The translations under genes were made by a program, and so were the position numbers. 42,400 nt of DNA from an uncultured Monoglobus sp. Lineage in GTDB: Bacteria > Bacillota > Clostridia > Monoglobales > Monoglobaceae. The notes beneath the pieces were generated by a model. That model did not search any database. It was not told the DNA's origin and saw only the letters and a program-made list of their open reading frames with translations. Numbering within the stretch: position 1 is the stretch's first letter; each line of letters begins with the position of its first letter. The DNA lies in assembly GCA_947624775.1 (NCBI GenBank), contig CANQLT010000010.1, forward strand, positions 1-42,400, written 5' to 3'. This document shows positions 10,121 to 37,098 of this stretch, piece by piece.

Positions 10121-10152
10121 TCCGAATACTTTTCTTGTAACATATTCTTAAT

Positions 10153-10181
10153 TTGAAAAAATTATAATATTATGGTATAAT
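10153..10181 (+). promoter_or_regulatory. Sigma-A-like promoter in the dnaI downstream region
   Basis: TTGAAA (10153-10158), 17-base spacer, TATAAT (10176-10181), with no coding frame worth naming behind it. The nearby sequence is very AT-rich, which raises the chance of a fortuitous match. Confidence 0.5.
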
Positions 10182-10221
10182 AATAGTGCTTAATAACAAA
10201 ACGGTAAAGTAGAGCGGTATA

Positions 10222-10249
10222 AACGTAGTGATTAGTGATTAGTGATTAG
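10222..10249 (+). repeat. GTGATTA tandem repeat, member of an interspersed family
   Basis: AACGTA followed by three tandem copies of GTGATTA. The same AACGTAGTGATTAGTGA block occurs on the minus strand at 34230-34253 just before panC. It is therefore an interspersed repeat, not a local slip. No function is known to me. Confidence 0.75.
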
Positions 10250-10326
10250 CGAATAGAGAATAGAACTTCCGCAAAACGCCAACGAAGTGCATTTTGCGGG
10301 AAAAGGAACAATCGCAGAGCGATAAG

Positions 10327-10349
10327 AAAAAATCGCCTGCGATTTTTTT
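10327..10349 (+). terminator. Hairpin with T-run downstream of dnaI
   Basis: AAAAAATCGC, CT, GCGATTTTTT with a seventh T: a self-complementary hairpin with A-run and T-run that could end transcription in both directions. It would close the dnaA-dnaI operon or the candidate RNA at 10188. Confidence 0.55.
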
Positions 10350-10439
10350 GATAAGCGGCGCGCATTGTGCCGTGCTGATGAAACAGATATTAAGAATTAT
10401 ATTTTTAACTATTATGTTTCTCGTGTTATTCACGACAAA

Positions 10440-10526
10440 AGCAATATAACCGTCTCGAAAAATTCGGTCTGAGACGGTTATATTAAATAACTAAAATTTC
10501 AGGCTGTACCGCATATGCGGTGCCGT
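10440..10526 (-). ncRNA. Candidate small RNA B (hairpin core shared with RNA A at 36977-37092)
   Basis: Minus-strand transcript predicted from a perfect consensus promoter (10534-10562). It opens with GGC, one base, CCGC, a four-base loop AUAU, GCGG, four bases, GCC (10495-10517 region), then an AU-rich linker, then a perfect 14-base inverted repeat (10443-10456 with 10471-10484, loop 14) followed by GCTTTTG, which can serve as terminator. The first hairpin has the same layout as one in the RNA predicted downstream of trpA. No open reading frame is evident. Length about 87 bases. Existence as a transcript is inference. Confidence 0.5.
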
Positions 10527-10533
10527 TAGTATT

Positions 10534-10562
10534 ATTATAGCATTTGTTCCCCCTTTTGTCAA
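10534..10562 (-). promoter_or_regulatory. Perfect sigma-A promoter of candidate RNA B, inside an inverted repeat
   Basis: Minus strand: TTGACA (10557-10562), 17-base spacer, TATAAT (10534-10539). The -35 box lies at the centre of a perfect 10-base inverted repeat, GTTCCCCCTT (10546-10555) and AAGGGGGAAC (10561-10570), loop five, which on the plus strand could also be read as a terminator stem followed by TTTT. Confidence 0.7.
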
Positions 10563-10630
10563 GGGGGAACTTTTAATTCGGATTTAAACATTTCTTAAAC
10601 ATATTTTTCAAAAAAAATAAAAATAAACTA

Positions 10631-36856: not shown

Positions 36857-36976
36857 CAAAAATATCAGACTTAATTGAAATTTATGTCAATACATGAAAA
36901 ATCCGGGACTAAATGTCATGCTCCTCCCGCGCGCTTTGTAAAGATAATTTAATTTTACTTTTGTCGAATTATAAAC

Positions 36977-37092
36977 TAAAAATATAGCCGCCCTGATTTG
37001 ACCGGAGGGCAGCTATATCTGATATTCTGTTTTTTCGGCCGGCCGCATTGCGGCGCCTTTGATGCTTTAAGGAGCCCCAGGCTCCTTTTTGC
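36977..37092 (-). ncRNA. Candidate small RNA A (hairpin core shared with RNA B at 10440-10526)
   Basis: Minus-strand RNA of about 116 bases from a perfect promoter (37099-37127) just after trpA. Hairpin 1: AAGGAGCC/GGCTCCTT with a three-base loop (37069-37087). Hairpin 2: GGC, one base, CCGC, AAU, GCGG, three bases, GCC then GAAA (37037-37057), the element shared with RNA B. Hairpin 3: AUAUAGC-U-GCCCU pairing with AGGGC-G-GCUAUAU (37018-37006 with 36994-36982), then TTTTT, an intrinsic terminator. No reading frame is visible. It could instead be a readthrough trp terminator region, but a fresh perfect promoter argues against that. Confidence 0.6.
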
Positions 37093-37098
37093 GTTTAT

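Follow-up and report, generated by a model that had tools for sequence, protein, structure and literature searches.

Two small RNAs of an uncultured Monoglobus are probable antitoxins of a type I toxin-antitoxin family with mRNA fold-back

Introduction

The window analysed here, a stretch of 42,400 nucleotides from an uncultured Monoglobus species (contig CANQLT010000010.1), carries two small RNAs with a common hairpin core on its minus strand, which raises the question of what these RNAs are and what they act upon. The first-pass annotation had read them as members of a dispersed small-RNA family that it did not recognise, and this part was right: members are found in all Monoglobus genomes examined, their base pairs covary and Rfam holds no match. 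The reading as a small RNA was incomplete in that the RNA appears to form the antisense partner in a toxin-antitoxin locus, whose convergent toxin ORF had been missed. Judging from the sequences and their relatives, we put the probability that both RNAs are antitoxins of one type I toxin-antitoxin family with mRNA fold-back at about 0.85.

Two copies of a covarying RNA

The RNA of copy B (10435-10531, minus strand, start near 10527) consists of a 5' hairpin and a 3' terminator hairpin, scores 90.7 bits in cmsearch and folds with a z-score of -4.8. It is preceded by the perfect TTGACA-17-TATAAT promoter that had been described (10562-10534, minus strand, 12/12 consensus positions), and its 5' start reads GGC-A-CCGC-AUAU-GCGG-UACA-GCC at 10524-10502, likewise as annotated. 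The whole 5' hairpin reads GGCACCGCAUAUGCGGUACAGCC, and sequence, covariation and leader comparison show its 3' arm to be a repeat of a motif in the toxin mRNA leader. The AUAU-footed end hairpin is present at 10443-10484 and is shared by the two strands, containing the terminator of the antitoxin RNA and the toxin stop codon; in its helix 3, 9 of the 11 pairs have changed on both sides. Copy A (36973-37064, minus strand, start near 37092) has its hairpin core GGC-G-CCGC-AAU-GCGG-CCG-GCC at 37057-37037, its own TTGACA-17-TATAAT promoter at 37127-37099 (minus strand) and a long 3' hairpin, with a fold z-score of -3.75. The AUAU-A foot reported as common to both 3' hairpins exists, but it is the region of the toxin stop codon.

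A covariance-model search of relatives, suggested along with the first reading, found covarying homologues and, in comparison with Rfam, no match. The model was built from 21 aligned copies that included copy B and left out copy A, and within the window it ranked copy B first (90.7 bits) and copy A second (38.7 bits, E 1.9e-6), the next match reaching 21 bits, so that the hairpin core common to A and B is not due to chance. Across 53 diverse members, 15 of the 18 base pairs of the RNA have changed on both sides and 97% of cells are paired; none of 500 shuffles matched this covariation and slid controls dropped to 30% to 48% paired, in a test that leans toward structure because the alignment was fitted to structure. 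The antitoxin promoter is perfect in 54/90 family members, and promoters with at most two mismatches precede 72% of members versus 3.5% of control windows. No Rfam family matches the antitoxin RNA at its gathering score, and a weak hit of LLnc147 to one locus (L010; 29 bits versus a gathering score of 127) was disregarded.

Both promoters had also been described as having the -35 box at the centre of an inverted repeat, understood as a matter of promoter design. For copy B the repeat itself stands, and 27 of 28 close copies retain such an arm pair, which comes in several sequence versions and is followed by T-rich tails, but a terminator scan identifies it as the intrinsic terminator of the opposite, toxin-bearing strand (GTTCCCCCTT-TTGTC-AAGGGGGAAC followed by TTTTAATT; 10546-10570, plus strand), which overlaps the antitoxin -35 box and explains why the symmetry outlasts changes of the bases. 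The 4-bp GCTT/AAGC repeat of copy A is lost in two orthologues (L037, TGTTTTGTCAAGC; L039, AAATTTGTCAAGC), was therefore rejected as a conserved feature and probably arose by chance. The toxin strand of copy A carries a terminator-like hairpin, AAGGAGCC..GGCTCCTTTTT, at 37069-37094 (plus strand), which is kept in L036-L039.

A small hydrophobic peptide gene faces the RNA

Almost every member of the RNA family is met head-on by a tiny hydrophobic ORF with a Shine-Dalgarno (SD) sequence and a length of about 20 to 31 codons (38 in one case). The ORF ends in the foot of the 3' hairpin of the RNA, where its stop (ATA TAA and similar) lies. An SD-led ORF of 18 to 45 codons with its stop inside a fixed 25-nt window was found at 67 of 90 model hits, with about 1.3 expected from the frequency of such ORFs in the rest of these loci, and in 59 of those 67 loci the ORF ends at exactly the +15 offset. 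Other orders of Clostridia show an ORF opposite the RNA at 23/27 model hits; a good ORF is missing from about a quarter of model hits. The first reading, a free-standing family of trans-acting small RNAs with opposite ORFs by chance, fits the window itself in that neither copy A nor copy B has a normal toxin, but it is hardly credible beside an approximately fifty-fold ORF enrichment at a fixed position that recurs in distant genomes, and for the entire family it stands refuted; copy A, as an orphan, could nevertheless act in trans.

The peptides typically have about 23 residues (range 20 to 38) and a mean hydropathy of 1.86, and the family alignment resolves subfamilies that include MKYAFRILFIVSLIHIFFAIFAKTVI (the intact peptide of L010), MKYVFRTLFIMFLILILFAIFPNKVI, MKQLIRIIFLTILFLVLFTIKTV (with a GTG start), MLNTILKIIVAVVIFFIIVSTKAI and MKNYFFKVFLALLVIIVLFAIFAQPVQ. 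Substitutions in their codons favour the reading frame, with a pN/pS of 0.45 and 85, 42 and 128 differences at codon positions 1, 2 and 3, in pairs that are not fully independent because the copies are related. The peptides matched none of the toxin families known to Pfam, NCBIfam or PADLOC, so the label "toxin" rests on layout and hydrophobicity; four members are weakly touched by a PHROG of unassigned function. The loci have the parts of a type I system, i.e. a gene for a small hydrophobic peptide, at sequence level an antisense RNA that has its own promoter and overlaps the toxin mRNA, and a ribosome-binding site predicted to be closed (median SD-unpaired probability 0.25).

In copy B, the toxin promoter TTGAAA-17-TATAAT and its upstream box TGTAACATATTCTTAATTTGA occupy 10136-10181 on the plus strand, with the box at 10136-10156. 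This box, TGTAAC-N5-TTAA-N-TTGA, overlaps the -35 element, and all 24 exact occurrences in six genomes, including one with none (G009), precede tiny toxin ORFs; a reversed control gave no occurrence. Among the tested genomes the box was seen only before tiny toxin genes (window 10136-10156 and loci L080-L103). Pho (phosphate-starvation) control of the toxin promoter was considered and rejected, the box not being found before pstS-like genes of four genomes.

A conserved box in this position suggests that expression of the peptide genes is regulated and would also suit a convergent antisense RNA controlling a small membrane protein other than a toxin, e.g. a stress or signalling peptide, the more so as the ORFs stay intact in copies without a leader and the toxic effect is itself deduced from layout and hydrophobicity. 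We consider this unlikely, since many diverging copies per genome, a peptide half that decays while the RNA half stays, and anti-SD hairpins together with fold-back are all usual marks of type I toxins. For the preferred type I reading, we infer that the loci are expressed and the peptides toxic.

Leader-to-tail fold-back

The leader of the toxin mRNA carries a motif, GCGGUACAGCC and its variants, that is identical to the 3' arm of the antitoxin 5' hairpin. As the antitoxin is antisense to the 3' end of the mRNA and shares this leader motif, the leader is complementary to the 3' end of its own mRNA, and the 5' hairpin of the antitoxin therefore mimics the leader. Across 65 loci, leader and own 3' end are predicted to pair with energies between roughly -17 and -53 kcal/mol and a median z of -4.5; in 85% of the loci this pairing takes first or second place when set beside 100 shuffles. 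For the antitoxin 5' domain paired with the leader, the median z is -0.3. Cognate 3' ends beat non-cognate ones for leader pairing (0/20000 permutations), and leader and 3'-end variants change on both sides. The full mRNA of locus L010 folds with a 5'-3' helix at z -9.9; in copy B the fold-back is weaker (z about -2).

Symmetric identity alignment gave 281 differences that preserve a G-U pair and 69 that result in A-C, a direction that fits RNA pairing in the mRNA, with a nominal p-value that is too small: relatedness among the copies leaves the counts partly dependent on one another, and base composition may contribute to the bias. The same evidence bears on whether the loci are non-autonomous mobile elements, with leader and 3' complement as terminal inverted repeats and the RNA incidental to them. 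Such elements would be in keeping with the roughly twelve copies in each genome and their differing flanks, with a spacing of about 250 bp between the inverted repeats and with the dispersed repeats nearby, but both promoters lie outside the inverted repeats, orthologous copies hold their flanks across species (L007 and L026; L012 and L014), and the locus-wise covariation of the repeats with G-U favoured over A-C points to RNA pairing, leaving the mobile-element explanation very improbable. That the two 5' domains are identical within each locus might also be explained if a shared protein or RNase bound this common domain, with no pairing of leader and 3' end; the shared sequence, however, varies among subfamilies, its two copies within a locus covary and the mismatches lean towards G-U, so that we give a common binder little weight.

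On the preferred reading, a sigma-A-type promoter with its special upstream box would give rise to a toxin mRNA for a single-helix membrane peptide of 20 to 38 residues, and a strong convergent promoter to an RNA of about 85 to 115 nt that is antisense to the entire 3' untranslated region of this mRNA. The leader would pair with the 3' end of its own mRNA through about 24 predicted pairs while a local anti-SD hairpin holds the ribosome site mostly closed. The 5' domain of the antitoxin, being a copy of the leader, would bind the mRNA 3' end and oust the leader, and the resulting duplex would most likely be marked for decay by RNase III. A role of the fold-back as a direct lock on the SD is not supported by prediction, and a direct block of translation is not claimed, because the predicted SD opening hardly depends on the fold-back (median unpaired probability 0.25 vs 0.23, i.e. 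about 0.25 with or without it); protection of the mRNA ends would be its more likely role.

In the epsilon and zeta subfamilies (L080, L081, L095 and L098), leader and antitoxin have a longer 5' domain in common, GGCAGAGC..ACGGUUGGCCGCUUC, and fold-back energies are near -50 kcal/mol. A riboswitch in this leader was sought in Rfam, which gave no match.

The toxin halves of the two window copies

By comparison with relatives, the toxin half appears to be missing or impaired in both window copies. At copy A, a promoter stub, TGTAAAGATAATTTAATTTTACTTTTGTCG, is fused to the stop codon (TAG at 36985-36987), so that the remnant spans 36937-36987 on the plus strand with about 140 bp deleted. Three relatives (L037, L038 and L039) have an intact gene, MKHALGIIFLTFLFLIIFTMKVI or VKHVLGIIFLTFLFLVIFTMKVI, at this position, and two others (L036 and L044) show the stub joined to the stop codon as in the window. 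On this comparison copy A is an orphan of the putative antitoxin family, its toxin having been deleted, and the 24-codon ORF opposite to it (MSCSSRALCKDNLILLLSNYKLKI) was rejected as a toxin since it is the deletion scar. Two further genomes (G005 and G006; loci L040 and L042) have no toxin or antitoxin core between the next gene and what we take, from reading the sequence, to be trpA; the site holds nothing there but a promoter-like stub and a terminator hairpin, which may reflect deletion of the complete module.

Copy B retains promoter, ORF and antitoxin. Its toxin ORF of 23 amino acids, MKQILRIIFLTIMFLVLFTTKAI (10378-10449, plus strand; family alignment), has no Shine-Dalgarno sequence. 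Comparison with L002, L003 and L010 shows that the native leader persists only as a remainder ending in AGAGCGGTA (10188-10219, plus strand), after which a dispersed repeat of the GTGATTAG type (10220-10373, plus strand) stands in place of the native leader with its anti-SD and SD. This repeat has 47 matches in the genome, most of them to its first 40 bases, and leader inserts of the same kind are present in L004, L014, L018 and L083. The antitoxin of copy B would guard a toxin that is probably poorly translated. Repeats of the GTGATTAG type contain an A/T-flanked hairpin and have been swapped for the toxin leader in several copies and species with the ORF left intact.

Distribution of the family

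Used as a DNA query, copy B has ten matches in its own genome and matches in 8 of 11 other genomes of the genus. With the covariance model, members turn up in 12/12 Monoglobus genomes, and a further genus (G017) has many of them. At E 1e-4 a second model detects the family in 26 of the 51 genomes from the order and in 39 of the 391 from the class. Matches to the sequence pattern that carry names are from uncultured Monoglobus, nearly all from a sample set called "Lapin", which suggests rabbit gut as the source of these samples; a pattern match in Symbiobacteriaceae (L054) looks like chance. The family has no match in phage and plasmid collections (IMG/VR by pattern, phages, plasmids), and an origin from phages or plasmids was rejected on this basis. 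In one genome (G009, contig 1, 2362173-2363738, in part L140), five antitoxin-RNA matches stand in tandem within 1.6 kb.

We tentatively lean toward a large clostridial superfamily of type I toxins that is defined by RNA architecture and not by peptide sequence, in which the mRNA is closed leader-to-tail and a leader-mimicking antitoxin takes the tail by strand displacement. Tiny peptides and RNAs without a common sequence make type I toxins difficult to detect. A covariance model that describes nothing but the antitoxin RNA retrieves loci of distant Clostridia and predicts a peptide gene at a fixed offset, which makes it a practical detector of loci that annotation of gut bacteria has missed. 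From the leader-mimic layout follows the directly testable prediction that the antitoxin competes with the folding of the mRNA itself, and an orphan antitoxin beside a leader-replaced toxin illustrates how such loci decay.

Relation to known type I systems

The family is filed as a type I system by its layout, outside the named families. Neither the family nor a leader-mimicking antitoxin was found described in the literature within reach of our search, outside which most subscription journals lie, and the family is apparently undescribed.

A 5'-3' long-distance interaction is a feature of the toxin mRNA of hok/Sok. The same holds for the toxin mRNA of aapA/IsoA from Helicobacter pylori (PMC6733600), and such pairing is predicted, with covariation, for the new family. 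In aapA and hok the SD is closed directly by the 3' end, whereas no direct effect on the SD is predicted here, and the antitoxin of the new family differs from IsoA and Sok in overlapping the 3' untranslated region.

The par/Fst-RNAII locus of Enterococcus has convergent promoters, a shared terminator hairpin, a second contact near the 5' end and, further upstream, a helix protecting the mRNA (PMC7472228). Convergent promoters, a terminator hairpin common to both RNAs, a second contact region towards the 5' end and an upstream helix with a proposed protective role are also seen or predicted in the new family, but the direct repeats of Fst make antitoxin and leader complementary, whereas inverted repeats make them alike here; Fst-like complementarity of leader and antitoxin was rejected (median z -0.3). 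The convergent type I loci of C. difficile, CD2517.1-RCd8, CD2907.1-RCd9 and CD0956.2-RCd10, occur several per genome (PMC6563280). Their toxins have 34 to 59 amino acids and a charged tail and lie mostly in prophages, unlike the new family with its lack of matches in phage and plasmid collections.

The 3'-overlapping antitoxins RatA, SR4, SR5 and SR6 of B. subtilis promote decay of their toxin mRNAs (PMC6562991). Most members of the Monoglobus family have no sequence similarity with txpA/RatA, bsrG/SR4, bsrE/SR5 and yonT/SR6, and compared with these loci their peptides are shorter (mostly 20 to 27 amino acids), their antitoxin of about 85 to 115 nt lies nearly entirely inside the toxin 3' untranslated region, and the antitoxin mimics a leader-to-3'-end fold-back. 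The Hol_Tox profile (PF16935) matches no Monoglobus peptide and gives one distant member 16.3 bits (E 0.009), below its cut-off of 23.3. One locus of the genome that holds the window (L046, contig 16, 1350-1750) encodes a BsrG-like peptide, MDYIEILMLVIFIIALSELVKNIKK, opposite the same convergent RNA and with a fold-back z-score of -7.9, hinting at a link to toxins of the TxpA/BsrG kind.
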